DNA of 64,000 bases from Saccharothrix australiensis (lineage in GTDB: Bacteria > Actinomycetota > Actinomycetes > Mycobacteriales > Pseudonocardiaceae), in assembly GCF_003634935.1 (NCBI RefSeq), contig NZ_RBXO01000001.1, positions 2,319,501-2,383,500 of the forward strand. Direction: 5' to 3'. The notes under the pieces were generated by a model, which made no database searches, was not told the DNA's origin, and worked only from the letters and a program-made list of their open reading frames with translations. The stretch's first letter is position 1; each line of letters starts with the position of its first letter. Made by a program: the position numbers and the translations under genes. Positions 33,777 to 50,227 of this stretch are shown piece after piece.

Positions 33777-35588
33777 GTGACGAACAGGTTCGCGGGCGCG
33801 GCCCTCGGCCTCCTGGTCGCGGCCGGCCTGGTCGCCGTGGTGCCCGCGTCCGCGGTGTCCTCCGGGACCACCGTGCCGGAGGGGCAGCTGACCCACCTCG
33901 CCAAGGTCGAACTGCCGGGCAAGGCGTGCTCGGGCGCCCTGGTCGGCCCGCAGTGGGTCGTCACGGCCGCCGGCTGCTTCGCCCCGGCCGACGGCGCGAC
34001 GCCGCCGCCGGGGACGAGGGTGGTGCTCGGCGCGGAGACCGCCGAGGTGGCGGGCCTGGTCCGCCGCGAGGACCGCGACGTGGTGCTGCTCGAACTCGCG
34101 ACACCCGTCACCGGCGCGACACCGCTCGGCGTCGGGGCGGCCCCGGAGCAGGGCACCGCGGTGAAGGCGGCCGGGTTCGGCCGCACGGCGAGCGAGTGGG
34201 TGCCCCTCCGCCCGTCCGTCGCGCCGTTCACGGTCACCGCGACCACCGCCACGACCCTGGCGATGACCAACGCGGACGGGAAGGACCTCTGCAAGGGCGA
34301 CGCGGGTGGGCCGGTGACGCGCGAGGTCGACGGCCGGCTGGAGCTGGTCGGCGTCAACAGCACGTCGTGGCAGCACGGCTGCCTCGGCGAGACCGGCACG
34401 CGGCAGGGCAGCACCGCGAGCCGCGTGGACGACCTCGCCGGCTGGATCAAGGACACCGTCGACCCGAGCCGCGCGCGCTTCGGGCCGGTGAAGGTCGGCA
34501 ACCTGTGCCTGGAGGTCGCCGACGGCCGCACCGAGGAGGGCGCGGCCGTCCGGATCGCCGACTGCGCCGCGCCCGGCACGCCGCGGCAGTCGTTCACCAC
34601 GGGCCCGGAGGGCACGCTGCGGGTGCTCGGCAAGTGCCTGGACGCCGCGGGCCCGGTGTCCTCCTGGGGCATGAAGCACGTCCGCCTGCTGACGTGCGAC
34701 GGTTCCGACCAGCAGAAGTGGCAGGCCGGCCAGAACCGCTCGCTGGTGTCGCCGTGGAACCGGTTCTGCCTGGACGGCACCGCGAACACGGCGGGCAGCG
34801 GCGTGACCACGAACCCGTGCCACGGCCAGGCGAACCAGCAGTGGACCGCGCCGGCGCGGTTCGCCCGGCTGGGCAGCCTGGTCGGTGACGGCGGCCTGTG
34901 CCTGGACGTCACGGGCGGCAACGCGGCCGACGGCGCGCTCCTGCGCACGGCGGACTGCATCACGCCCGCCTACGCGCCGACCGCCGCGCGCCAGGTCGTC
35001 ACCTCCGCGCCCGACGGCACGCTGCGCGTGTTCGACAAGTGCCTGGACGCCGGCTCGACGACCGTGCAGCTGCGCACGTGCGACGGCACGGACCGGCAGA
35101 AGTGGACGGCACGGCCCGATCTCGGCTACGCGTCCGCGGTGAACGGCCGCTGCCTGGACGCGGCCCGCGACCGCGACGCCACCACGACCGAGTGCGCCGG
35201 CGGCGCCACGCAGCGGTGGACCCCGCGACCGGTGCAGCCGATCAAGGGGGGCAGCGACCGGCTGGTGCGCGGCGAACGCCTCTCCGCCGGCCAGTCCAAG
35301 TGGTCGCCGGACGGCCGCTTCCGCCTGACCATGCAGCCGGACGGTAACCTGGTGCTCTACGCGCAGGCGGACGGCGCCGCGTTGTGGAGCAGCGTCACCT
35401 GGGGCTCCGGCGCGACCCACGCGATCCTCCAGCCCGACGGCAACCTGGTCGTCTACACCGCCGCCGGTGAGGCCAAGTGGCACACGTGGACCTTCGGCAC
35501 CGCGGCCGAGCGGTTCGTCGTGCAGAGCGATTCGAACATCGTCCTCTACGGCCCCGACGCGACGCCGTACTGGCACCGCTGGAAGTGA
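33777..35588 (+). CDS. Secreted S1-type pseudo-protease with ricin-like and bulb-type lectin domains
   Basis: The protein has 603 residues. A signal peptide (1-26) is followed by a chymotrypsin-like domain (about 34-228). Its catalytic His is replaced by Gly66 in TAAGC and its Ser by Ala176 in GDAGGP, while the Asp (DVVLLEL, Asp101) remains. It should therefore fold but not cut. Residues 235-490 hold ricin-type beta-trefoil repeats (CLEVADG, CLDAAG, QQKWQAG). Residues 490-603 are a bulb-type lectin with three QxDxNxVxY motifs (QPDGNLVLY, QPDGNLVVY, QSDSNIVLY). It is probably an extracellular sugar-binding protein. A paralogue with other lectin modules lies at 59704. Confidence 0.85.
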   Translation: MTNRFAGAALGLLVAAGLVAVVPASAVSSGTTVPEGQLTHLAKVELPGKACSGALVGPQWVVTAAGCFAPADGATPPPGTRVVLGAETAEVAGLVRREDRDVVLLELATPVTGATPLGVGAAPEQGTAVKAAGFGRTASEWVPLRPSVAPFTVTATTATTLAMTNADGKDLCKGDAGGPVTREVDGRLELVGVNSTSWQHGCLGETGTRQGSTASRVDDLAGWIKDTVDPSRARFGPVKVGNLCLEVADGRTEEGAAVRIADCAAPGTPRQSFTTGPEGTLRVLGKCLDAAGPVSSWGMKHVRLLTCDGSDQQKWQAGQNRSLVSPWNRFCLDGTANTAGSGVTTNPCHGQANQQWTAPARFARLGSLVGDGGLCLDVTGGNAADGALLRTADCITPAYAPTAARQVVTSAPDGTLRVFDKCLDAGSTTVQLRTCDGTDRQKWTARPDLGYASAVNGRCLDAARDRDATTTECAGGATQRWTPRPVQPIKGGSDRLVRGERLSAGQSKWSPDGRFRLTMQPDGNLVLYAQADGAALWSSVTWGSGATHAILQPDGNLVVYTAAGEAKWHTWTFGTAAERFVVQSDSNIVLYGPDATPYWHRWK

Positions 35589-35593
35589 CGCCC

Positions 35594-35623
35594 GATGGCG
35601 TCCGGGGTTTCCCGGACGCCATC
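35594..35623. terminator. Bidirectional terminator hairpin
   Basis: A perfect 13-bp stem GATGGCGTCCGGG with a GTTT loop follows the lectin-gene stop by 5 bases and precedes the convergent operon end. Confidence 0.88.
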
Positions 35624-35670
35624 GCCGCGCGCTCGACCGAGCCGGTCGGGCGACGTCCCGTCCGGGGTGG

Positions 35671-36510
35671 TCACATGGCCCCGCCCGGCACGGGCGTGAC
35701 GTCGCCCGCCGGGTGGTCGGCGGTCAGCGGGGGCGCCACGCCGCGCAGCTCCGCCAGCTGCTCGGCGGAGAGGCAGAACACGCGGTTGCCGGCGGCCTCC
35801 GCCCACGCGGTCAGCTCCCGGTGGGGCAGCTCGCGGCCGGCGGCGGCCAGGACCACGTTGCCCGCCTGCCTGCCGAGCAGCAGGCCCGGTTCGGCGAGCA
35901 GCAAGACGTGCGGGAACACCTCGGCGAGGGCCGCCACGGCGCGCAGCGGCAGGGCCATGTCCGCCGCCGACCACATGTTGCCCACGTAGAGGCCGCCGGG
36001 GCGGAGCACCCTGGCGATCTCGCGCAGGAACTCGACGGCGGCCAGGTGGATGGTCACGGTGCCCGCCCGGAAGACGTCCATGACCACCACGTCGGCGGTC
36101 GCGTCGGGGGTGCGCCGGATGCCGGCCTCGCCGTCCTCGACGCGCACCCAAAGGTCCGCGATCGAGTCCAGGTCGAGGTGCTCGCGCACGAGGTCGACCA
36201 GCGGGCCGTCCAGCTCGTAGACCGTCTGGGGCGAGCCGGGGCGGGTCGCGGCCAGGTACCGCGCGAAGGTGAAACCACCTCCGCCGACCTGGACGGCGCG
36301 CACCGGCTCGCCCGCGGGCCAGTGCAGGTCCAGCACCCGCGCGAGCCACGTGGTGTACGGCATGTGCAGGTAGGTCGGGTCCGCCAGGTCCACGAAGGAC
36401 TGGAGGGTGCCGTCGACCGTGAGCAGCCAGCCGGTCGGGCGGTACGGGCCAGGCGCGAGCCGTGCCGCGCCGAACTTCACCTGCCGGTCCACGGCCTCGC
36501 GGGATTCCAC
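35671..36510 (-). CDS. Spermidine-synthase-like methyltransferase-fold protein in RiPP operon
   Basis: The protein has 279 residues from a GTG at 36510 with GGGTGG upstream. The start lies 34 bases inside the rSAM gene, so the two are coupled. The Rossmann-like core has VQVGGGGFTFARYL (motif I), YELDGPLVDLVREH (acidic residue after strand 2), DVVVMDVFRAG (motif IV) and VLRPGGLYVGNMW. This matches spermidine-synthase-like proteins, many of which are not true aminopropyltransferases. As the third gene behind a peptide and a radical SAM enzyme, it could alkylate or aminopropylate the product. That role is inferred from context only. Confidence 0.8.
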   Translation of the reverse strand: MESREAVDRQVKFGAARLAPGPYRPTGWLLTVDGTLQSFVDLADPTYLHMPYTTWLARVLDLHWPAGEPVRAVQVGGGGFTFARYLAATRPGSPQTVYELDGPLVDLVREHLDLDSIADLWVRVEDGEAGIRRTPDATADVVVMDVFRAGTVTIHLAAVEFLREIARVLRPGGLYVGNMWSAADMALPLRAVAALAEVFPHVLLLAEPGLLLGRQAGNVVLAAAGRELPHRELTAWAEAAGNRVFCLSAEQLAELRGVAPPLTADHPAGDVTPVPGGAM

Positions 36511-37760
36511 GTCGCCACCCTAGTCCTCCGGCCGGGCCGGGCGGCGGCACCGGACGCGGCGGGACCGGGGAGGGACCGCCGGTGCGGCAACGCGCCGCGC
36601 GCCGCGAGCTCGTCGAGCAGCGCGGCGTCCACCGCGTCGTGGAACGAGGCGGTCTCCTCGGGGGTGCCGTGCTCGGCGGCGTTGTAGGTGCAGGTGACCC
36701 ACCGCGGCGTCAGCTCGGCGGGCGCGAGGTAGCCCGAGCGCACGTGCCCGACCGCCATGTCCGCCTTCCCGACGGTCTCCCAGCAGCTGTAGAGGGTGCC
36801 GTCGGCGTTGACCACCGCCCCGGTCCGACCGGACCGGATGGTGCAGAACTCGCAGTGGAACCCGGCTCGGGGCGGGCGCGGCCGGAAACCGAGGTCCAGG
36901 GCGTGGCGGTACCAGCCGACGACCTGCCGGGCGAGGTCGGCGGAGTGGCGCAACCGGTTGTCGTAGCCGATCCCGACGTCGTCGACCAGCGCGATGTGCA
37001 TGCCGGCGGTCGAGGGTTCGACGTGGCGCGCGAGCCGGTCGAGGAGTCCCGGCACGGTGTGGGCGTTGCGGTGCGACACGTTGACGCGGAACTGCCAGGC
37101 CATCCCGACCGCGGCGGAGACGTCGGCGATGTTGCGCAGGATCTGGTCGAAGGTGCCGCGCCCGTTGCGGGTGGCCCGGATCAGGTCGTGGGTGTCGCGG
37201 TCGCCGTCGAAGGTGATCTGGGTCGCCCGCAGGCCGGCGTCGACGAGTTCGCCCGCCGTCCGGGCGGTCAGCAACACCCCGTTGCTGACCATCGCCGCGG
37301 AGGTCATCCCGTGCTCGCGGGCCCGGCGCAGGAGGGTGAGGCAGCCCGTGCGGTTGAGCAGCGGCTCACCGCCGAACAGCAGGACCTTGAGCTTGGTGAA
37401 CCCCGCTGTGCCCATCATCCGGTCGGTGAAGGCGAGGATGTCGTCGATCGTCCTCGGCGACAGGTGCGCGGCCGGGATCCGGTCGGGCGCGGGGTTGCCG
37501 TCGTCGGCGAACTCGACGTTCTGGAAGCAGTAGCCGCAGCCCAGGTTGCACCGGGTGCTGGTCAGCACGGTGAGGCTGTAGCCGTCGCGCGGTCGTTCGG
37601 CGAGGAAACCGCCCTGGCGCAACGCGGTCCGGGCCGCCTCGACGAGGACGGGCCGGTCGGGCTGGTCGGGGTCGTCGGTCGAGACGGCGTCGAGGGGCAG
37701 CCGGGCGATCTTGCTGCCGTGCAGGCACCACCACGAGTCGTGGCCGCGCAGCAGACGCAT
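36477..37760 (-). CDS. Radical SAM peptide maturase (SPASM/twitch-like)
   Basis: The protein has 427 residues. The ATG at 37760 has GGAAGGACGG upstream. The iron-sulfur motif CNLGCGYC (Cys71, Cys75, Cys78) and LLFGGEPLL (128-136) define a radical SAM enzyme. The C-terminal part has FHCEFC (Cys303, Cys306), GTLYSC (Cys326) and VTC (Cys357), enough for one auxiliary cluster of the twitch/SPASM type used by RiPP maturases. It lies 80 bases behind a tiny Cys-containing peptide gene and overlaps the SpeE-like gene. It probably forms a thioether or C-C crosslink on that peptide. The peptide is the likely but unproven substrate. Confidence 0.88.
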   Translation of the reverse strand: MRLLRGHDSWWCLHGSKIARLPLDAVSTDDPDQPDRPVLVEAARTALRQGGFLAERPRDGYSLTVLTSTRCNLGCGYCFQNVEFADDGNPAPDRIPAAHLSPRTIDDILAFTDRMMGTAGFTKLKVLLFGGEPLLNRTGCLTLLRRAREHGMTSAAMVSNGVLLTARTAGELVDAGLRATQITFDGDRDTHDLIRATRNGRGTFDQILRNIADVSAAVGMAWQFRVNVSHRNAHTVPGLLDRLARHVEPSTAGMHIALVDDVGIGYDNRLRHSADLARQVVGWYRHALDLGFRPRPPRAGFHCEFCTIRSGRTGAVVNADGTLYSCWETVGKADMAVGHVRSGYLAPAELTPRWVTCTYNAAEHGTPEETASFHDAVDAALLDELAARGALPHRRSLPGPAASGAAARPGRRTRVATWNPARPWTGR

Positions 37761-37806
37761 GTCATCCGTCCTTCCGGGTGTGGGCGGCACCGGGCCGCGT
37801 GCGGGT

Positions 37807-37834
37807 GGGGCCGCCCCTGCGGAGGGGCGGCCCC
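37807..37834 (-). terminator. Attenuator-like hairpin between precursor and maturase
   Basis: GGGGCCGCCCCT pairs perfectly with its complement over 12 bp around a 4-base loop, starting 5 bases after the peptide stop. A partial terminator here would give far more precursor than enzyme transcript, as in many RiPP operons. Confidence 0.8.
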
Positions 37835-37839
37835 GTCGA

Positions 37840-37911
37840 TCACACGTTGGTCACGCAGAAGGCGGAGCAGAGATCGTCCGCCTCGGCGGTGTCGTAGATC
37901 TCGATCGCCAT
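37840..37911 (-). CDS. Candidate RiPP precursor peptide, 23 residues
   Basis: The ATG at 37911 has a textbook AGGAGGTGA ribosome site 8 bases upstream, among the strongest in the window. The peptide splits into an acidic leader (MAIEIYDTAEADDL) and a C-terminal CSAFCVTNV with two Cys three residues apart. It is too short for ordinary gene finders. A hairpin follows, then a radical SAM maturase and a SpeE-like protein on the same strand. I know no named family with this core, and a thioether-bridged or cyclophane-type product is possible. There is no signal peptide. Confidence 0.78.
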   Translation of the reverse strand: MAIEIYDTAEADDLCSAFCVTNV

Positions 37912-38040
37912 GTGCCGTTCACCTCCTCCTCGGTCGCGGCCGTGACGTCGCGGTCGCGGCCGTACCCCCGGCGCGGCGTTCCGCTCCTCGATCGTCGCGG
38001 GGCAGGCGGGTCGCGGCCGGCACCGGGCGGTGGGTGATCG

Positions 38041-38054
38041 ACCGACCGGTCGGT
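38041..38054. promoter_or_regulatory. 14-bp perfect palindrome upstream of the RiPP precursor
   Basis: ACCGACCGGTCGGT lies 130 bases before the peptide start. A second palindrome (ACACGCGTGT) lies at 38098-38107. Both sit in the gap between the giant HTH/Hsp90 gene and the peptide operon and could bind a regulator, possibly the HTH protein itself. The role is inferred. Confidence 0.4.
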
Positions 38055-38129
38055 GGTCGACAGCGGGGCGCGCTCGTGGTCCACGCGCGTTGTCGTGACA
38101 CGCGTGTGAGCGCGACTGGCTTCGGGAGG

Positions 38130-41100
38130 TCAGCGCGGCGCGGCGGCGGGGTTCGGCGGTGGTCCGTCGTCGGCGACACCGGGCACGCCGGCGTAGATCG
38201 CGGCCAGCTCGGCGTCGAAGCCGGGCACCGCCAGGTCGAGGGCGGCCAGTCGGTCGGCCACCTCCTCCGGCGTGGTCTCGAACCACAGCGCCTGCTCCAG
38301 CACGTCCCTCGCCTTGATGGGCCGGGTGAGGTCCAGTCGGCCGAGCAGGTCCAGGTCGAGCCGGTCGAACCGCTCCGGCAGCCGGTCGGTCGCCGGCGGG
38401 GTGTAGCCGAGTGCCGACACCCGTTCCGCCGTGCGGCGCGGTGACGTGCCGGTGCGGCCGGCGGCGTGGGCCACCACCGCGAGCGGGGCGGCGCTGCCGG
38501 CGGGCGCCCGGCCCAGCGCACACCCCCGCGCGCTGAGCAGGTGGTAGTCGACTTCGAGGAGGTCGTCGTCCAGGTGCGCGACGTCGGGCACCTCGAACCC
38601 CATGCGTCGCAGGCGGTTCGCCACCCCGGCGATGGTGCCGCCCACCTCCCGCGTCGCTTCCAGCAGGGACTCGAACGTCCGGCGGTCCTCCCACCGCGGG
38701 ATGGGGCGCAGCGGCGTGGAGAATTGCAACAACCGCTGGTCGACCCCGTCGAGGTCGCCGCGCCACACCTGCTCGTCGGGCAGCACGAAGCCGAGGTCGC
38801 CGAGCCGCGCGGCCGCCTCCGCCACCCGGACGCCCGCTCGTCCGGCGATGTCGAGCAACAGGCCGAGCGGGACGCGCACCGGACCGGGCGGCAGGTCCCG
38901 GTCGAGCCACTGCCGCGTCAGCAGCGCCGCGTCGCCGTCCGCCAGTTCGCGCGGGACCCGCCCGTCCGCCGGGACGGCGAGCCCGATCTCCGCGAACCTG
39001 CGGGCGACCTCCGCCGGCGGCACGCCCCAGAGCACCGCCGCTCGCACGACCTGGGACGGCGGCACCGCGTCGCCGTCCTCGACGGCGCAGTCCAGGAACA
39101 CGCGCCCGAGCCCACCGCCGACCGTGCCCAGCCACTCGGGCGTGTGCCGGACGTCGGGCACCGGGAAACCCAGTTCCCGCAACCTGGACGCGATCGCGGG
39201 GGAGTCCCGCCGCAGCACGGCGGCGGCGAAGTGCACCCTGGCCGGCTCGACCGGCCAACCGTCGGGCAGCCACGGCCGGCCGCCGTCGACGTTCAGGCTG
39301 ACCAGGATCACGTCGGACCGCGTCACGCGGGAGGGCAACCCGGCGGTGGACGGGGCGGAGAAGCCGAAGAACGCCAGCCTGTCCGCGACCGCGCTCGGGC
39401 TCGACTTCGCCGCGTGCGCGGCTGCGACGACGTGTCCGACGGACACCGGGGCGCCGGGCGGCAACCAAGGCGCGATGGCGTCGCAGTCTGCGCTCACCAC
39501 GGTGAAGTCCGCTTCACCGGGCTCGTCCGCCAGTGATCCCCAGTCGACGTCCGGGAGCGCGTAGCCCAGGCGGGCCAGCCGATCGGCCAGTGCCACGACG
39601 CCGATCTGCGTGTCCTTCGCGACGGCGAGCACCAGCCCGACGGGGAGGTCCTGGCTGCCGGGCAAGTGGCTCCTGCGCTCGTACAAGTCCTCGATGATGG
39701 CCTTGTCCGACGGCGACAGGGGTGTCACCCCTGCTCGACCCGCGCGCGCCAGCGAAGTCCAGGCGAGGCTCACCGCACTGGCGCTCCGGCCTGCCCCGAA
39801 CAGGTTCAGGCGCTCCGCGTAGTGGTCGTGGAGGCGGCGCACCAGGTCGAGGTCCGCGTAGGAGTACCCGCCGTCGAGGATTTCCGAGGACCCGATGAGG
39901 GCTCGCCACGGTCCGCCCGACGCCGCGACCTCGTCCGCGACGATGTCCGCCGTGCCCGGACTCGTGCGGGCCACCCGGACCAGCCACTCCAGCGACAGGA
40001 ACAGCGGGTTCGCCTGCCGCAGGGCAGGCACCGACCGCCGCAGCAACTCCTCGACCAGGGGTGAGACGTCGTCCAACACCTTGCTGCGGTCGACCGTGAG
40101 CTTGGGCGCGCCCTTCCTCGTGAGGTTGACGACCGCGCCGTACAGGCTTTCACCGTACGCCGGCCCGGCGAGGACGCCTCTGCGCTTCAGGGGCTCCACG
40201 TGGATGCCGTCGACCAGCAGGCCACCGCCCTGCTCGCACCACACGACCTGACCGTGCTCGGTCCGCTCGCCGTGCACGAGCGCCCCCGAGGCGTGCAGGC
40301 CGCTCCCCCCGCCCGCGGGACGGGACTCCAGCTCGAACGGCCGCCACGTCGCGTCGTGGTCGCCGTGCACGGCGGTGGTCTCGAACTCGGCGATCCCGAG
40401 GATGCGTTGCAGCACGTCGACGCAGGACTCGGCGTCCGCGCCGGCCCGCAGGTACAGCGTGACCGCCGTGCCGGGCCCGATGTCCTCGGCCAGGGTCTCG
40501 ATGCGGAACAGGTGGCCGGGACCGGCGATCATCACGCGCAGCGCCTCGCCGTGGTCGTGGCCGTTGGGGTGCATCCGGCGGGTGCGGATCTCGATCTCGT
40601 CGGCCAGCATGAAGTAGCTCAGCACGCCGATGCCGAACCGGCTGTTGGGGAACAGCTCGACGCCCGCCGCCTCCCACCTGGCCTGCTCCTCCCGGAACTC
40701 CGGGCGGTCGGCGAAGCGGACCCCCGCGCGGGAGAAGACCTCGCGCAGCTCGGCCCGGCCCATGCCCACGCCGTTGTCGGCGCAGCGCAGGACGTGGCGG
40801 CCGTGCTCGACACCCTGCGTGAACTCGATGCGGCCGGTCCACCCGATGTCGATGCCGCGCGAGGCGCGCAGGTAGTCGTGCCGCGCCTGGCGGTAGCGGC
40901 ACGCGTCGAGGGCGTTCTGGTACAGCTCGCGGACGGCCAGGGACCGGTCGCCGTAGAGCTGCTCGCCCATCAGCAGTTCGCGGACCCGCGTCTCGTCGAG
41001 CCGGAACCGGGTCACCGGGGTGACGAACACCGGCCGCCCGTTCTCCTCGGCGGGTTGCACGCGGTCGGCCGACGCGTGCGGCGGCAGCCGCCGCAGCGGC

Positions 41101-42332
41101 TCCAGCCGGAAGTCCTCGGCCGCCTCCCGCACCGCCGACAGCACCGCGTCCACCCGCGCCACGTGGCTCTTCAGCGCCTCCAGCACGGCCTCGTGCCGGC
41201 AGTCCGCGATCAGCCCGGTCCCGACGCCCTCCACCGGCACCCAGGCCGCGTGCGCGATGGTCGTGCGCAGGTGGTCGAGCCGGACCGGGTCCGGTATGCC
41301 GAGGTGCTCCACCACCGTGATCGGCAGCGCCGTCAGCTCGACGGCCTGCTCCCACGCGACCACGAGCAGCAGCCCGACCAGCTCCTCCCGCACGACCTGC
41401 GGCGCGGTGGTGAGGCCGAGGTGCGTCTTCTCCGGGTGCAGGCGTCGTCGGTGCCGCAGGTCACCGGGTGTCAGGTGGAACAGCGCGGTCAGCCGGTCGA
41501 GGGTGGCGTACAGCTCGCGGGACGCGGGGTTCGGCACCGGTAACGCGCCGGCCTGCTCGTGGTCCGGGTGGCCTGCCGTCCACTGGTGGAACATCCACCA
41601 GCCGATGGGCGCCACCGAGTCGCCGCGCCCCGGCAACCCGGTCCGGGCGACCAGCCGCCCCTGCTCGGCGCCCGCGAGGAAGTGCTCGTACTCCCGCCGG
41701 TCCGCGCCCGCGCCGTCCTCCGGGCGCAACCGGGTCGGGCCGAGGTGGACGCGCGACGCCGCGGCCTCCAGCACGCGCACCCGGTGCAGCATCGGCGCGA
41801 GCACCAGCAGGGCGGCCTCGGCGCCGGTCGGCCGGAGGTCCACCAGCTCCACCAGGTCGGCCAGCCGCCGCTCGACGCGGTCGACGAGGTCCGGGTCGAG
41901 CCACGGCGACCCGGCGAGCGCGCGCTCGGCCGCCTGCCGCCGCCTGCCCAGGTCCGCCGCCAGCCGCACCACGTCGTCGCGGAACGCCGCCACGTCCGTC
42001 GCCCGCGCCCACACCGGGTGCGTCCTCGCCCGGTCGGGCCACCGGTCGGGCGCGGGCGGCGCGGGCGGCGCGGACTCCAGCGCGGCGTGCCTGCCGCGCC
42101 AGTACTCCACCGTCCCGTTGGGCGGGGCCACCTTCGCGGCGGCCAGGGCGGCCCGGACGATGGCGATGACGTGCTCCAGGTCCGGCAGCTTCTTGATCCG
42201 GCCGTTGAGGATCGCCGACACCTGGCTGCGCCCCGGCCCGCCGTGCGACGCCGGCGCGGTGACGACCGCGCCGGACCGCTGGAAGAACTCCCGCAGCTCG
42301 CGGCAGAACCCGGCCAGGTCCTCAGGCGTCAT
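38130..42332 (-). CDS. Giant HTH / Hsp90-like ATPase / winged-helix-repeat protein
   Basis: The protein has 1400 residues. The ATG at 42332 has GGGAGGGGG upstream. Residues 1-90 are XRE-like (SQVSAILNGRIKKLP). Residues 440-900 are a GHKL (Hsp90/histidine-kinase-type) ATPase with N-box ELYQNALDACRY (470-480), DNGVGM (519-524) and the G2 loop SRFGIGVLSYF (564-574). From about 935 to the end a repeat of the type VADRLxxLGFxxPD recurs eight times every 60-70 residues, like the wHTH arrays described for actinobacterial Hsp90-linked conflict proteins. It could remodel or sense a partner. It lies 218 bases upstream of the RiPP peptide on the same strand. Confidence 0.8.
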   Translation of the reverse strand: MTPEDLAGFCRELREFFQRSGAVVTAPASHGGPGRSQVSAILNGRIKKLPDLEHVIAIVRAALAAAKVAPPNGTVEYWRGRHAALESAPPAPPAPDRWPDRARTHPVWARATDVAAFRDDVVRLAADLGRRRQAAERALAGSPWLDPDLVDRVERRLADLVELVDLRPTGAEAALLVLAPMLHRVRVLEAAASRVHLGPTRLRPEDGAGADRREYEHFLAGAEQGRLVARTGLPGRGDSVAPIGWWMFHQWTAGHPDHEQAGALPVPNPASRELYATLDRLTALFHLTPGDLRHRRRLHPEKTHLGLTTAPQVVREELVGLLLVVAWEQAVELTALPITVVEHLGIPDPVRLDHLRTTIAHAAWVPVEGVGTGLIADCRHEAVLEALKSHVARVDAVLSAVREAAEDFRLEPLRRLPPHASADRVQPAEENGRPVFVTPVTRFRLDETRVRELLMGEQLYGDRSLAVRELYQNALDACRYRQARHDYLRASRGIDIGWTGRIEFTQGVEHGRHVLRCADNGVGMGRAELREVFSRAGVRFADRPEFREEQARWEAAGVELFPNSRFGIGVLSYFMLADEIEIRTRRMHPNGHDHGEALRVMIAGPGHLFRIETLAEDIGPGTAVTLYLRAGADAESCVDVLQRILGIAEFETTAVHGDHDATWRPFELESRPAGGGSGLHASGALVHGERTEHGQVVWCEQGGGLLVDGIHVEPLKRRGVLAGPAYGESLYGAVVNLTRKGAPKLTVDRSKVLDDVSPLVEELLRRSVPALRQANPLFLSLEWLVRVARTSPGTADIVADEVAASGGPWRALIGSSEILDGGYSYADLDLVRRLHDHYAERLNLFGAGRSASAVSLAWTSLARAGRAGVTPLSPSDKAIIEDLYERRSHLPGSQDLPVGLVLAVAKDTQIGVVALADRLARLGYALPDVDWGSLADEPGEADFTVVSADCDAIAPWLPPGAPVSVGHVVAAAHAAKSSPSAVADRLAFFGFSAPSTAGLPSRVTRSDVILVSLNVDGGRPWLPDGWPVEPARVHFAAAVLRRDSPAIASRLRELGFPVPDVRHTPEWLGTVGGGLGRVFLDCAVEDGDAVPPSQVVRAAVLWGVPPAEVARRFAEIGLAVPADGRVPRELADGDAALLTRQWLDRDLPPGPVRVPLGLLLDIAGRAGVRVAEAAARLGDLGFVLPDEQVWRGDLDGVDQRLLQFSTPLRPIPRWEDRRTFESLLEATREVGGTIAGVANRLRRMGFEVPDVAHLDDDLLEVDYHLLSARGCALGRAPAGSAAPLAVVAHAAGRTGTSPRRTAERVSALGYTPPATDRLPERFDRLDLDLLGRLDLTRPIKARDVLEQALWFETTPEEVADRLAALDLAVPGFDAELAAIYAGVPGVADDGPPPNPAAAPR

Positions 42333-42512
42333 CCGGCGCCCCCTCCCGTGCGCGATGTCCGGACCGGACGTCCTCCGGACGGCCGCCACCAGCGGCGATG
42401 CCACTCGCAAGGGCCATTCTTCCGGTGCGTTCCGCGATCGGGGACACCGACCCGCCCGAACGGCGACCGTTCCACCGTCCTCATCGGCGACAACGGGAGC
42501 AGGTGCTGCAAG

Positions 42513-42611
42513 GTGGACTGGATCGCGCTGATCACGGCGGCGCTCGGCACCATCACGGCGGGTCTGGAACTGGCCAGGGTGGTGCGGCGGGAGCGGCGCG
42601 ACGACGAGTGA
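42513..42611 (+). CDS. 32-residue membrane peptide (tentative)
   Basis: From a GTG at 42513 the frame gives one hydrophobic helix (VDWIALITAALGTITAGLEL) and a basic tail (RVVRRERRDDE). The ribosome site (GGGAGCAGGT) is moderate. It reads away from the giant HTH/Hsp90 gene, 180 bases from its start. The clean helix-plus-charged-tail design resembles small toxins or accessory peptides, but the evidence is thin. Confidence 0.35.
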   Translation: MDWIALITAALGTITAGLELARVVRRERRDDE

Positions 42612-42982
42612 CGAGGTGTGCGGGCCGCTCGACCGGGGCCGGGTGCGGGAGGGGTGCCGGCCGGGACGGGCGGTGGGCTGCGGAGGTGAGCGGGTGGTGG
42701 CCGGCCGCACCACCGGCCGGCGGCGGCCCCTGCTCGGTGGCGTGGTGTCCCCGCGCGGGGAAGCTGTCGTCGGGGCGTCCGCGCGGCACACGATCGGGTG
42801 GTTCCGGGTGCACTGCTCGTCGCCGGTTCGGCCGTCCGTGGCGCTCCGCCCGGTCGTTGTCGCGCGAAAGCGCTGGGGGACAGGGCTTCCCGGTGGACTA
42901 CGGCGAACGAGTGACCTGTCGGGACGGGCCGCCCGGTGGAGCTACAGTGCCGGCTCGGTGACTCCGGTGGAGGGGGTGCTGG
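42612..42982. other. Intergenic region, nothing recognised
   Basis: 370 bases with extreme G+C content precede the FAD oxidoreductase. No ribosome site with a sensible frame, hairpin or repeat stands out. The downstream promoter is presumably near 42860-42950, but I cannot place it. Confidence 0.4.
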
Positions 42983-45529: not shown

Positions 45530-45712
45530 CCGGCCGGCGAGCCGGTGGACGCGCCTCGGCCGGGGGTGCGCGGGTCGTGACGACGAGGCGGGCTCGGCGC
45601 GGCGGGTGCCCGCCACCCACCGCGCCGAGCCCGCCGTCCGCAATTCGGTTGTGCGCCCGGCCCGTGCTCGACAGGCTTGCCCCGACGTCCCGATCGGTCG
45701 AGGGGGAGCCCG

Positions 45713-46810
45713 GTGGCACTGCTCTTCGTCACGCTGGCCGGGCACGGCCACGTCACGCCCACGCTGGCCCTGGTCGAGGAACTGGTGGGGCGCGGCCACG
45801 AGGTCGACTACGCGACCGGCGCGGAGCACGCCCGCGCGGTCACGGCGGCCGGTGCGCGCTGGGTGGAGCTGCCGGGGCTGCCGCCGTTCCGGCCGAGCGG
45901 CGGTGACCTCTTCGCGGCCTGGTTCCGGCACTACTTCGCGGCGATGCGCGCGGTCCACCCCGTCCTGCTCGACCGCTGCCGGACCCGCCGGCCCGAGGTG
46001 ATCTGCTACGACGCGACCAACTGGCCCGCGCGGATCGTGGCCAGGCAGCTGGGCGTCCCGGCGGTGCGGTGCGTGCCGCACCTGGCGTCCAACGAGTCCT
46101 TCAAGCTGGTGGTGCCCGACGCGGCAGGGGTGATCGCGGACGACTGCGCGCGGTTCTCCGAGGAGCACGGCGTCGAGCTGGACGTCGTGAGCGCGTTCGA
46201 CGTGCCCGAGGCGTTGAACCTGGTGTTCGTGCCGAGGGAGTTCCAGCCCGCCGGTGAGACCTTCGACGAGAGGTTCCACTTCATCGGACCGCTGCTCGGG
46301 CGGCGCGCCGCCGAGCCCTGGTCGCCGAAGCACCCCGACCTGCCGCTGCTCTACGTGTCACTGGGCTCGATCATGACCGACCCGGAGTTCCACCGGGCCT
46401 GCGTCGCGGCCTTCGCCGACGGGACGTGGCAGGTGGCCCTGAAGTCCGACGACGCGGGACCCGTACCGTCCACTGTGGACGTTCAGGGCTGGTTCCCCCA
46501 GCCCGCGGTGCTGCGGCGGGCGCGTGCGTTCGTCACGCACGGCGGGATGAACTCCACGATGGAGGCGTTGGGTTGCGGCGTGCCGCTCGTGGTGGTCCCG
46601 CAGACGCCCGAGCAGGAGGTCAACGCCGACCGCGTCCGGGAACTCGGCCTGGGTGAGCGCTTGGCGGACGTCGCGGACCTGCGGGCGGCGGTGGAACGGG
46701 TCACCGCCGACGGCGCGGTGCGGCGGAACCTCGACCGGATGCGGGCCGCCATCCGGGCCGGCGGGGCCGCTGAGCGCGGCGCCGACCTCGTGCTCGGGCT
46801 GGTGTCCTGA
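45713..46810 (+). CDS. Macrolide-type (MGT/UGT) glycosyltransferase
   Basis: The protein has 365 residues from a GTG at 45713 with GAGGGGGAG upstream. The N-terminal domain opens with LLFVTLAGHGHVTPTLALV, the acceptor-site His motif of GT1 enzymes. The C-terminal donor site is THGGMNSTMEALGCGVPLVV followed by PQTPEQEVNA, the PSPG-like motif of macrolide glycosyltransferases. It would transfer a nucleotide-activated sugar to a small hydrophobic acceptor. No sugar-biosynthesis genes are near, so resistance-type inactivation with UDP-glucose is possible. The acceptor is unknown. Confidence 0.9.
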   Translation: MALLFVTLAGHGHVTPTLALVEELVGRGHEVDYATGAEHARAVTAAGARWVELPGLPPFRPSGGDLFAAWFRHYFAAMRAVHPVLLDRCRTRRPEVICYDATNWPARIVARQLGVPAVRCVPHLASNESFKLVVPDAAGVIADDCARFSEEHGVELDVVSAFDVPEALNLVFVPREFQPAGETFDERFHFIGPLLGRRAAEPWSPKHPDLPLLYVSLGSIMTDPEFHRACVAAFADGTWQVALKSDDAGPVPSTVDVQGWFPQPAVLRRARAFVTHGGMNSTMEALGCGVPLVVVPQTPEQEVNADRVRELGLGERLADVADLRAAVERVTADGAVRRNLDRMRAAIRAGGAAERGADLVLGLVS

Positions 46811-47139: not shown

Positions 47140-49929
47140 TCACCCCTGCCGTTCGGGGCCGACCAACCGTTCTCTCTCGCTCTCCAGGACGTCGAGGTCG
47201 GTCAGGATCGCCAGGGCCGCGGCGCGGTGCCGCTGAGCGTGCTCCAGGGGCCCGCACCGCGCGACACCGGCGTGCGCGCGGGCCTGTTCGTAGTGGTGCG
47301 CGATCGCGTCGGCGCGTTCGAGGGCTTCCCCGTACGCGGCAGCGGCGGCAACGGGGTCGTGCAGGGCGCGGAAGGTGTCCCCGAGTTCGTTCAGCACCTC
47401 GACCTCGCCCGACCGGTCGTGCATCCGGCGCAGTTCCGCCAGGGACCGACGGAGGTGGTCGGCCGATTCCCTGGGACGGCCCGCTCGTCGGGTGACGATG
47501 CCGAGGACGATGAGGGAGTGCGCCTCCGCGTGGCGCAGCCCGCAGGCGCGTTGGAAGCGGAGTGCCCGGTCGCAGCGGTCCAGCGCCTCGGCGACCCGGC
47601 CGAAGTGGGCGAGCACCACCCCGCTGTTGGCGACGAAGCGCGACGTCGTCCCGGTCATCCGGTGCTCGTCGACCAACCGGACGGCGCGCTCGAACAGCTC
47701 CAGCGCCTCGGTGTGCCCGCCCTGGCGCTGGTGGATGATGCCGAGGTTGTGCAGCACCGCGGTCGCCGCCCGCCAGTCGCCCGCCCGCTCGGCCGACGCC
47801 AGCGCCCGCCGGTACCACCGGGTGGCCGCCCGGTAGTCGCCGTGCCAGAAGTGCGCGACCCCGAGGTGCTTCGTGATCGCGGCTTCGCCCGCCGCGTCGC
47901 CCACGCCGCGCGCCGCGCCGAGCGCACGGGTGAGCTGGGGGACCCAGTCCCGGCCGAGTCCCCGGCAGTAGCGGAAGAACCAGAGCGCGTCGGCGAGCTT
48001 CCAGGCGTGCTCTGGCCGGTCGTGCTCGACGGCGAAGTCACCGGCGGCGACGAGGTTCTCGTACTCGGCGTCCAGCCGGGTGGCGGCCATCCGGTCGTCG
48101 TCGGAGGTCGCTCGGACGGCGACGTCCAGGTAGTGGTCGAGCAGCCGGTCGACGGCCGCCCCGGCCTCGTCCCCGTCCGCGACCGCGCGGGCGAACAGCC
48201 GGACGAGGTCGTGGGTCCGGTAGCGGCCGGGCGTGCACTGCCGCACGAGGTGCGCCTGCTCCAGGTGGTCCAGCGCCTCGCGCGTGGCGCCCTCCGGGCG
48301 GTCGACGAGGCGGGCCGCCGCGTCCACCGCGATGTCCGGTCCGACCACGTGGCCGAGCAGGCGGAACAGCCTGGCCGGCTCGGGCGGCAGCACGCGGTAC
48401 GAGCACGAGAGCACCGCGCGGAGGTCCGCCCGCAGGTCGCCCGCGCGGAGCGCGTCCAGCCGGGTGGGTTCCCGCGCGAGTTCCGCGGCCAGCAGGGCCA
48501 GGGGGAAGTCCGGTCGCCGCGCGGCGCGCGCGCCGAGGACGGCGAGCGCGAGCGGGAGCCCCGCGCAGTACCGGACCACCGCCGCCACGGCGTCGGCCTC
48601 GTCCGCCACCCGCCGCGCGCCGAGGTGCCCGCCGAGCAACCGGCGGGACTGCTCCGGGTCGAGCAGGTCGACGGCCAGCCGGCGCGCGCCGCGCAGGGCG
48701 ACCAGCGCGCCGAGGTCGTCGCGACTGGTGACCAGCACGCAGCACCGCGGTCCGCCCGGCAGCAACGGGATGACCTGCGCGGCGTCGCGGGCGTTGTCCA
48801 GCAGCACCAGCACCTGCTTCCCGGCGAGCAGGCTGCGGTAGAGCGCCGCCTGCGCGTCGACGTCGAGCGGCGCGTCGGCCGGCCTCACCCCGAGCGCTTC
48901 GAGGAAGGACCGCACCACGACCGCGGGTGGCGTCGGCTCCTCGACCGGGTCGAACCCGCGCAGGTCCGCGTACAGCTGACCGTCCGGGAACCGCGCGACG
49001 TGGTCGTGCGCCCAGCGCAGCGCCAACCAGGTCTTCCCGACACCGCCCGCACCCACCATCGCGACCAGTGCGCCGCGGTCGGTGGCGTGCGCCTCCGTGA
49101 GGCGGGCGAGTTCGCCCGCCCGCCCGGTGAACACCGCCGGCGCGGTGGGCAGCTGGCGGGGCCGCGGGAAGCGACCGGCGGCCGGGGGATCGGCGACCGC
49201 GCCCGCCGACAGGATCTCCCGGTGCAGCCGCCGCAGCCGGTCGCCCGGACCGATGCCCAGCTCCCCGGCCAGGCGCAGCCGGGCCTGGTGGAAGGTGTCC
49301 AGCGCCTCGGCCTGCCGCCCGGTCCGGTACTGCGCGAGCATCAGCTGGGCGATGAGCTGCTCGTCCAGCGGGTCGTCCTCGATTTGCGCGGCCAGGCTCG
49401 GGATGAGCGCGGCGTGGTGCCCGAGGCGGAGCTGGAGGTCGGTCCACTCGCGCCGGGCCGTGCGGCGCTCGTCCGCGAGGGATTCCCGGAACAGGTCCAG
49501 CCATCGGCAGTCCACGCCGGTGAACGCCTCACCGCGCCACAGGGCGAGCGCGTCGGTCAGGAGGGCGCAGGTCCGCGAGTCGTCACCGCCCGCCCGAGCC
49601 AGGCCCAGCAGGCGGCGGAACCGGTGCAGGTCGACCGCGTCGGCGTCGACCGTGAGCGCGTAGCCGCCCGACCTCCTGACCAGGGTCACCTCGTCCGTGC
49701 CCGCCAGGCACTTCTTCAGGCGGGACAGGTAGCTGGACAGCGTGCCGCGCGCGCTGTGCGGCAGGCGGTCCGGCCACACCCGGTCGAGCAGCCGGTCGAC
49801 CGGGAGCACGTGGTTGGCCTCGACGAGCAGCAGCACCAGGACGCAGACCTGCCGGGGTGGACCCAGGTCCACGAGCCTGCCGTCGACGGTCGCCTCGACC
49901 GTGCCCAGCAGGCGGAACTCGACCGCCAT
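47140..49929 (-). CDS. AfsR/SARP-type transcriptional regulator
   Basis: The protein has 929 residues. The ATG at 49929 gives the standard SARP start (MAVEFRLLGTVEATVDG). Residues 5-95 are the OmpR-like winged helix and 100-240 the BTAD domain. Residues 260-560 form an NB-ARC/STAND ATPase with P-loop GAGGVGKT (293-300), LLDNARDA and a GLPLAL segment, and TPR repeats run from about 690 to the end. Such proteins switch on secondary-metabolite genes when the sensor part is triggered. The divergent ricin-type lectin gene is a candidate target. A weak inverted repeat AGTCT-N4-AGACT (49986-49999) lies upstream of its start. Confidence 0.93.
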   Translation of the reverse strand: MAVEFRLLGTVEATVDGRLVDLGPPRQVCVLVLLLVEANHVLPVDRLLDRVWPDRLPHSARGTLSSYLSRLKKCLAGTDEVTLVRRSGGYALTVDADAVDLHRFRRLLGLARAGGDDSRTCALLTDALALWRGEAFTGVDCRWLDLFRESLADERRTARREWTDLQLRLGHHAALIPSLAAQIEDDPLDEQLIAQLMLAQYRTGRQAEALDTFHQARLRLAGELGIGPGDRLRRLHREILSAGAVADPPAAGRFPRPRQLPTAPAVFTGRAGELARLTEAHATDRGALVAMVGAGGVGKTWLALRWAHDHVARFPDGQLYADLRGFDPVEEPTPPAVVVRSFLEALGVRPADAPLDVDAQAALYRSLLAGKQVLVLLDNARDAAQVIPLLPGGPRCCVLVTSRDDLGALVALRGARRLAVDLLDPEQSRRLLGGHLGARRVADEADAVAAVVRYCAGLPLALAVLGARAARRPDFPLALLAAELAREPTRLDALRAGDLRADLRAVLSCSYRVLPPEPARLFRLLGHVVGPDIAVDAAARLVDRPEGATREALDHLEQAHLVRQCTPGRYRTHDLVRLFARAVADGDEAGAAVDRLLDHYLDVAVRATSDDDRMAATRLDAEYENLVAAGDFAVEHDRPEHAWKLADALWFFRYCRGLGRDWVPQLTRALGAARGVGDAAGEAAITKHLGVAHFWHGDYRAATRWYRRALASAERAGDWRAATAVLHNLGIIHQRQGGHTEALELFERAVRLVDEHRMTGTTSRFVANSGVVLAHFGRVAEALDRCDRALRFQRACGLRHAEAHSLIVLGIVTRRAGRPRESADHLRRSLAELRRMHDRSGEVEVLNELGDTFRALHDPVAAAAAYGEALERADAIAHHYEQARAHAGVARCGPLEHAQRHRAAALAILTDLDVLESERERLVGPERQG

Positions 49930-50227
49930 CGCGCGTACCGTGCCCTTCCCGCCGGTGCTGCCCGAGCGGAGCTGCGGATTCAAGGAGTCTGCAAAGACTT
50001 GTCGGTCCGGTCCAGTGCAATGGTCGGCGCGGTGCGGGATCGGGTGGGGCGGGACGCGGGTGGAGCACCAACCCCGTGGACCGAACGGGCCACCGGTCCC
50101 GCACGGCGTCCGGGCAGGGCGTCGGCGGACCCCGTGGGACGGCACGGTCCGCGCCCGGCCCGGTCGTTCCCCCGGGGCTACCCCGGACCACCACCCTCGT
50201 CAAGCGGGGCAACGCAAGGAGCGCGTC

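Follow-up and report, generated by a model that had tools for sequence, protein, structure and literature searches.

A 23-codon frame in front of a radical SAM gene

In Saccharothrix australiensis, a frame of only 23 codons stands in front of a radical SAM gene, which raises the question of whether so short a peptide could be the substrate of that enzyme and which neighbouring genes would belong to the same pathway. We analysed a window of 64,000 nucleotides, meaning the whole stretch of DNA studied (contig NZ_RBXO01000001.1, positions 2,319,501 to 2,383,500). The original prediction had placed in it a peptide gene, a hairpin, a radical SAM gene and a spermidine-synthase-like (SpeE-like) gene on the minus strand, as the candidate pathway of a ribosomally synthesised and post-translationally modified peptide (RiPP), and all four are found on that strand as claimed. 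Taking the locus as a whole, we favour a two-gene RiPP operon, with a probability of roughly 0.72.

The peptide gene (37840-37911, minus strand) reads as 23 residues, MAIEIYDTAEADDLCSAFCVTNV, followed by a stop; the mass calculated for the untagged peptide is 2493.075 Da. The strong ribosome site predicted for it is indeed present, as a Shine-Dalgarno sequence AGGAGGT (37921-37927, minus strand) 9 nt from the ATG. Its codons are actinomycete-like, with G or C at the third position in 22/23 and at the second in 9/23. Of 15642 random stop-free frames of 23 codons in the window, 514 reach such a bias (at least 22 and at most 10, respectively), many of them probably real coding sequence; taken alone, the bias is weak support for coding.

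Between the peptide gene and the radical SAM gene (36477-37760, minus strand; ATG at 37760) lies the announced 12-bp hairpin, a perfect stem with a 4-nt loop at 37807-37834 (minus strand). The folding energy of the 82-nt gap is -43.9 kcal/mol (z -2.03; 9 of 200 shuffles were equally stable), which only modestly exceeds the expectation for such GC-rich DNA. Neither terminator-like sites nor sigma-70-type promoters were found in 35560-38200, and an Rfam search of 35500-38300 returned no match. It is possible that the hairpin is an attenuator or an mRNA-processing element. We claim no general attenuator role across relatives of the locus (designated by L numbers), since stems are seen after only some of their peptides: perfect stems of at least 10 bp follow those of L022, L025, L036, L039 and L040, and many relatives have none by a simple stem test.

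The enzyme resembles known peptide maturases

The radical SAM gene encodes a putative peptide maturase of 427 aa. Both the CxxxCxxC motif and the TIM-barrel-like core that characterise radical SAM enzymes are present: the cluster motif C71-x3-C75-x2-C78 (core CNLGCGYC) is invariant in 25/25 aligned enzymes, Pfam PF04055 (Radical_SAM) matches with 52.9 bits (cut-off 29.5), and the structure model (pLDDT 87.5) matches radical SAM folds. The C-terminal cysteines that had been predicted were recovered as C303-x2-C306, C326 and C357, again invariant in 25/25, which brings the invariant cysteines to seven in all. A full SPASM domain is defined by seven cysteines in the C-terminal domain; the window enzyme has four invariant ones there, a set that we take to be reduced and Twitch-like. 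Three strands and a helix are modelled within the N-terminal 60 residues, which might constitute a reduced recognition domain.

Among the best 25 of 60 NCBIfam matches (release 20), the enzyme stays below every cut-off. The highest score is with TIGR04463, a model of radical SAM/SPASM RiPP maturases (124.3 bits, cut-off 525); lower scores were obtained with geopeptide (102.6, cut-off 400), CefB (92.5, cut-off 600), PapB (NF047865, matching over 62-344; 82.8, cut-off 340) and SCIFF (TIGR03974; 51.6, cut-off 425). TIGR04463 is also the best NCBIfam match for 6/6 A1 members, and the window enzyme falls outside it by the NCBI rule. The nearest solved structures, by profile and by Foldseek, are peptide maturases, foremost the thioether-forming CteB/SCIFF maturase of ranthipeptides, peptides defined by a Cys sulphur bound to a carbon other than the alpha carbon (5wgg, 5why; profile E 1.1e-18, Foldseek E 3.1e-16, TM about 0.59). 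Other folds are among the closest as well, including that of the cysteine/serine oxidase anSME.

Relatives of the enzyme are accompanied by short cysteine peptides

We compared 41 relatives, a lower bound, of which 27 came from a profile scan, 4 from another scan and 10 from scans of the family and the class. The profile scan (one genome per species) listed 80 of 518 relatives; the 27 actinobacterial loci kept from these align at 41-49% identity, and the other 53, at 35% or less and mostly from other phyla, were left out. L165 and L166 are more distant members of the set (36-40%). No enzyme closer than about 50% was among the matches listed, and a contig scan with the single window protein as query found no relative. 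Close relatives are sparse, being detected in 12/389 other genomes of the family and 7/393 of the class (both at E 1e-40) and in 0/24 other genomes of the genus (E 1e-25).

All 41 relatives have a short Cys-containing ORF close to the radical SAM gene (49 peptides re-read from the DNA, 18-124 aa), the cysteine being for some peptides a consequence of the search design. Recurring or repeated precursor forms are found at 35/41 loci. A loose EVVAH motif proved unspecific (25/41 relatives but 3/13 controls), and therefore we used a strict version, EVVAH...C, which marks 24/41 relative loci and 0/13 control loci; with EVVAQ in L017 and VEAHS in L033, an EVVAH-like leader occurs at 26 loci. Six loci have a DYYGI-type precursor and two an 18-residue form, MVKAIVRRTEPVLICGVH. 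The peptides of L011, L012, L016, L019, L034 and L036 were assigned by position, ribosome site and cysteine, with some peptide resemblance besides for L034/L012 and in the comparisons with the window peptide.

Tandem cores occur in the precursors of L023, L026, L081, L022, L035, L037 and L163. The repeat unit of L026 is EVIAHSGEDTPWCGVNTGSAATEDDP. In L081 the core EDTPWCGVNTG occurs four times, in L023 the core WCGVHQ three times, and the L035 peptide has three repeats of ACGVQIGAPE. A C-x-[VIT]-[NHQ] core is present at 24/41 loci, compared with 0/315 background small ORFs.

Individual loci show further arrangements. L166 (3085 bp) contains the radical SAM gene, an overlapping methyltransferase gene and three tandem 18-residue peptides ending ICGTH, ICVTH and ICGVH; in L165 the radical SAM gene and an overlapping methyltransferase gene are likewise followed by an 18-residue peptide, ending VCVVH. 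These peptides, encoded in small actinobacterial genomes, are candidates for very small precursors. In L028 (8835-10688) and L038 (7863-10523), the ORF of an MFS transporter is extended, in the same frame, by a stretch resembling EVVAH (DDRADVEVVAHRDAEEPAGCCLVNHSSEL in L028); this would be a second precursor, either fused with the transporter or overlapping it. L033 (4176-6858) has a peptide ending VEAHSCSPLCMEV, then a RamC/LanC-like lanthipeptide synthetase gene and then the radical SAM gene, possibly a mixed lanthipeptide/radical SAM cluster.

Partner genes were counted by tblastn in the 31 + 10 loci: glycosyltransferase 14+5, prolyl oligopeptidase 16+5, DUF6895 12+1 and an M16 peptidase pair 3+3; a B12-binding radical SAM gene adjoins in L012. 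None of these adjoins the window pair, nor does a protease or exporter. In the Streptomyces group the precursor lies 2.3-2.6 kb upstream of the radical SAM gene, with glycosyltransferase-like and DUF6895 genes in between. L018, L021, L024, L027-L032 and L038 (Streptomyces and kin) carry an EVVAH precursor, an MGT-like glycosyltransferase and a DUF6895 gene upstream of the enzyme, which suggests that these clusters make a glycosylated, perhaps epimerised peptide; the title of a 2026 paper (cited in PMC13352647) calls DUF6895 a lasso-peptide epimerase.

As for the surroundings of the window pair, an MGT/UDPGT-type glycosyltransferase (45677-46810, plus strand) and a regulator of the BTAD/NB-ARC/TPR (SARP) type (47140-50145, minus strand) are encoded 8-12 kb upstream, and both are only distant from their counterparts in EVVAH clusters. 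They were rejected as cluster members, the glycosyltransferase matching the cluster type at only 29% over 173 aa. The gene immediately upstream of that for the peptide (38130-42791, minus strand; ORF of 1553 aa) combines Pfam iHD-CE and HD-CE with a stretch of HSP90-like ATPase and seven copies of the wHTH-HSP90_Na-assoc repeat; its product has no PADLOC match and resembles large ATPases of signalling or conflict type. At 33777-35588 (plus strand) is encoded a secreted-looking protein in which a trypsin domain is joined to lectin repeats of the ricin type, with B_lectin matching weakly.

The predicted modification

In the pathway that we propose, the ribosome would make the 23-residue peptide from the two-gene operon, and the enzyme would recognise its beta-strand-like front (AIEIYD..., encoded within 37840-37911, minus strand). 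With the help of SAM, its radical Fe-S cluster and at least one auxiliary cluster ligated by C303/C306/C326/C357, it would then modify the Cys-containing C-terminal part C15SAFC19VTNV, in which the proposed core starts at C15 or C19. Enzymes encoded elsewhere would take care of trimming and export. We consider it probable that the modification falls on this Cys-containing end. The most likely bond would connect a cysteine sulphur with a carbon in an amino acid three or four positions off. Candidates for this acceptor are N22 of the C19-V-T-N stretch and residues that lie between C15 and C19 or next to them. By analogy with CteB, PapB and NxxcA, we give a cysteine thioether about even odds, and N22 is a tentative choice of acceptor.

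Each of these three systems resembles the window pair in part. CteB shares the radical SAM core with a C-terminal Cys half and a small Cys peptide as substrate, but SCIFF has six cysteines in about 45 residues, compared with two in 23 in the window peptide, and the C-terminal Cys set of the window enzyme is reduced to the four invariant ones, unlike that of CteB/SCIFF. PapB is described as making Cys-X3-Asp/Glu thioethers in freyrasin (PMC9413430). Its system also has an acidic Cys peptide with few residues between the cysteine and a polar side chain; however, where PapB uses D/E, the residue three after the cysteine is N/H/Q in 24/41 of our loci. For the streptococcal NxxcA/NxxcB pair, a thioether between Cys23 and the C-beta of Asn20 is described (PMC8326336). 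NxxcA, likened here by the spacing of peptide residues, is also short and has its Cys and Asn at a distance of three positions, in the order N-x-x-C rather than the C-x-x-N of the window peptide.

The same RiPP pair could instead perform other chemistry, such as epimerisation, a C-C or C-O cross-link, or Cys oxidation. This would fit the restriction of the auxiliary half to four cysteines in all 25 enzymes, the very varied precursor cores and the presence of anSME besides CteB among the closest folds, but it sits less easily with cysteine being the sole residue found in every candidate precursor (partly by construction of the search) and with thioether-type maturases (geopeptide, PapB, TIGR04463) being among the nearest family models, even at scores far below cut-off. 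We regard such chemistry as possible but rather unlikely, and keep the thioether as the preferred modification.

The window peptide has homologues beside two relatives

Small ORFs are easily found, and the hairpin comes after this one. The 23-codon frame could thus be a chance or a leader/attenuator ORF, with the enzyme acting on another substrate. Against this stand the short Cys peptides by 41/41 relatives, some with tandem repeats, and the homology of the window peptide to peptides encoded at the same place beside relatives. Its alignment with the L016 peptide (IEIYDTAEADDLC / IVVFDTEEAADTC) scores 39, a value reached by 0/315 background ORFs and 1/2000 shuffles; that with the L036 peptide (AIEIYDTAEADDLCS / AIEIVELADCDLVCS) also scores 39 (0/315 and 0/2000). 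In the tree of the enzymes, the window protein falls outside the EVVAH clade (support 95/96), within a poorly separated set that includes L016, L019, L036, L034, L012 and the DYYGI group, and L016 is its nearest row by tree path. Comparisons with the L019, L034 and L012 peptides remain at chance level, since 13, 6 and 135 of the 315 background ORFs score equally well.

The EVVAH motif is absent from the window peptide. Its end, FCVTNV, fits the C-x-[VIT]-[NHQ] core, which occurs in 0/5 peptides of its nearest relatives. In the leader alignment the conserved cysteine corresponds to C15, not C19, and two cysteines with three residues between them are common to the window and L036 peptides. A core-matrix test ranked the window peptide first of 254 by a tiny margin (3.35 vs 3.32), and we therefore relied on the pair comparison with L016 and L036 instead. 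Because its peptide matches these two beyond background, the window precursor is, as far as sequence comparison reaches, real and old, though most relatives use a different leader.

The original prediction would lose ground if relatives of the enzyme lacked the peptide frame or kept a longer precursor. The 41 relatives answer this in two ways: a Cys peptide lies near all of them and two of these peptides are homologous to that of the window, but most relatives have longer EVVAH-type precursors with a leader unlike it. The central claim, a RiPP precursor encoded beside a conserved partner enzyme that matures it, is upheld by the L016/L036 homology and by the Cys peptides at 41/41 relatives. We therefore consider it highly probable that the window peptide is the precursor and the radical SAM enzyme its maturase, and improbable that the frame is a chance or leader ORF.

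The SpeE-like gene appears to lie outside the pathway

The SpeE-like gene (35671-36510, minus strand, GTG start) does overlap the radical SAM gene, by 34 nt on the same strand, as had been stated. Its proposed role as a third, aminopropylating enzyme did not hold up: it occurs in the genus without the radical SAM gene, and it lies near 0/41 of the relatives (31 + 10 loci). SpeE-like matches are found in 24/24 other genomes of the genus, in 13/24 at 70-87% identity and in none together with the radical SAM gene, and the neighbourhoods of these copies vary. In L130 and L131, where the radical SAM gene is absent, it has on either side a relative of a window gene; the two window genes concerned flank the region at 30-34 kb.

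A TANNNT box 6-7 nt before the start marks a leaderless actinobacterial gene. Such a box, TAGGGT (36517-36522, minus strand), stands 6 nt before the SpeE-like GTG, inside the tail of the radical SAM ORF, and a TANNNT box precedes the GTG in 13/13 genus copies (6 nt in 9 copies, 7 nt in 4). In most copies, DNA similarity extends no further than about 12-36 nt ahead of the start; L136 is an exception, with one weak alignment reaching 71 nt upstream. The protein matches NF037959 with 87.8 bits (cut-off 40) but Spermine_synth PF01564 with only 13.8 (cut-off 22.9). In the aligned stretch, the second Asp of the D-x-x-D motif, catalytic in spermidine synthases, is missing (DVFR).

The SpeE-like gene is, on these features, an independent gene of the leaderless type with its own predicted promoter, abutted by the radical SAM cassette. 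The radical SAM ORF would run into it, which would account both for the overlap and for the odd tail of the enzyme, most relatives lacking an equivalent of its final ~35 residues. That the SpeE-like protein aminopropylates or methylates the peptide is the least probable reading of the locus, for although the overlap, a class I methyltransferase directly downstream of the enzyme in L166 and L165 (55% mutual identity) and methyltransferases near L019, L036 and L012 (on the opposite strand) and, in L016, upstream of the peptide would suit it, the gene's conservation in the genus without the enzyme and in changing neighbourhoods, its absence near the 41 relatives, the box and GTG kept in 13/13 copies and the missing Asp all argue against it. 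Recruitment of a neighbouring gene is possible, L165 and L166 having a methyltransferase directly after the enzyme. More generally, a neighbour with its own hidden promoter can pass for a third pathway gene.

A RiPP family of actinomycetes

We found no description of this enzyme family in the literature searched, which took in few subscription papers. The window pair would belong to a radical SAM RiPP family without a name, spread across many actinomycetes. A bolder and speculative proposal is that of an actinomycete RiPP class of its own. Its enzymes would read an EVVAH/IEIYD beta-strand and cross-link Cys to Asn/His/Gln across C-x-x-[NHQ] in precursors of as few as 18-23 residues, and its Streptomyces-type products would be glycosylated and perhaps epimerised (DUF6895). 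Such a cross-link, if real, would mirror the N-x-x-C thioether known from streptococci.

Our analysis supplies precursors and partners for a family of radical SAM maturases that no named model in NCBIfam release 20 represents. The tandem-repeat precursors directly reveal enzyme recognition and the position of the core, and the chemistry is therefore testable in E. coli. With 23 residues and two genes, the window pair may be one of the smallest complete pairs of substrate and enzyme; at 18 residues, the L165 and L166 peptides are shorter yet.
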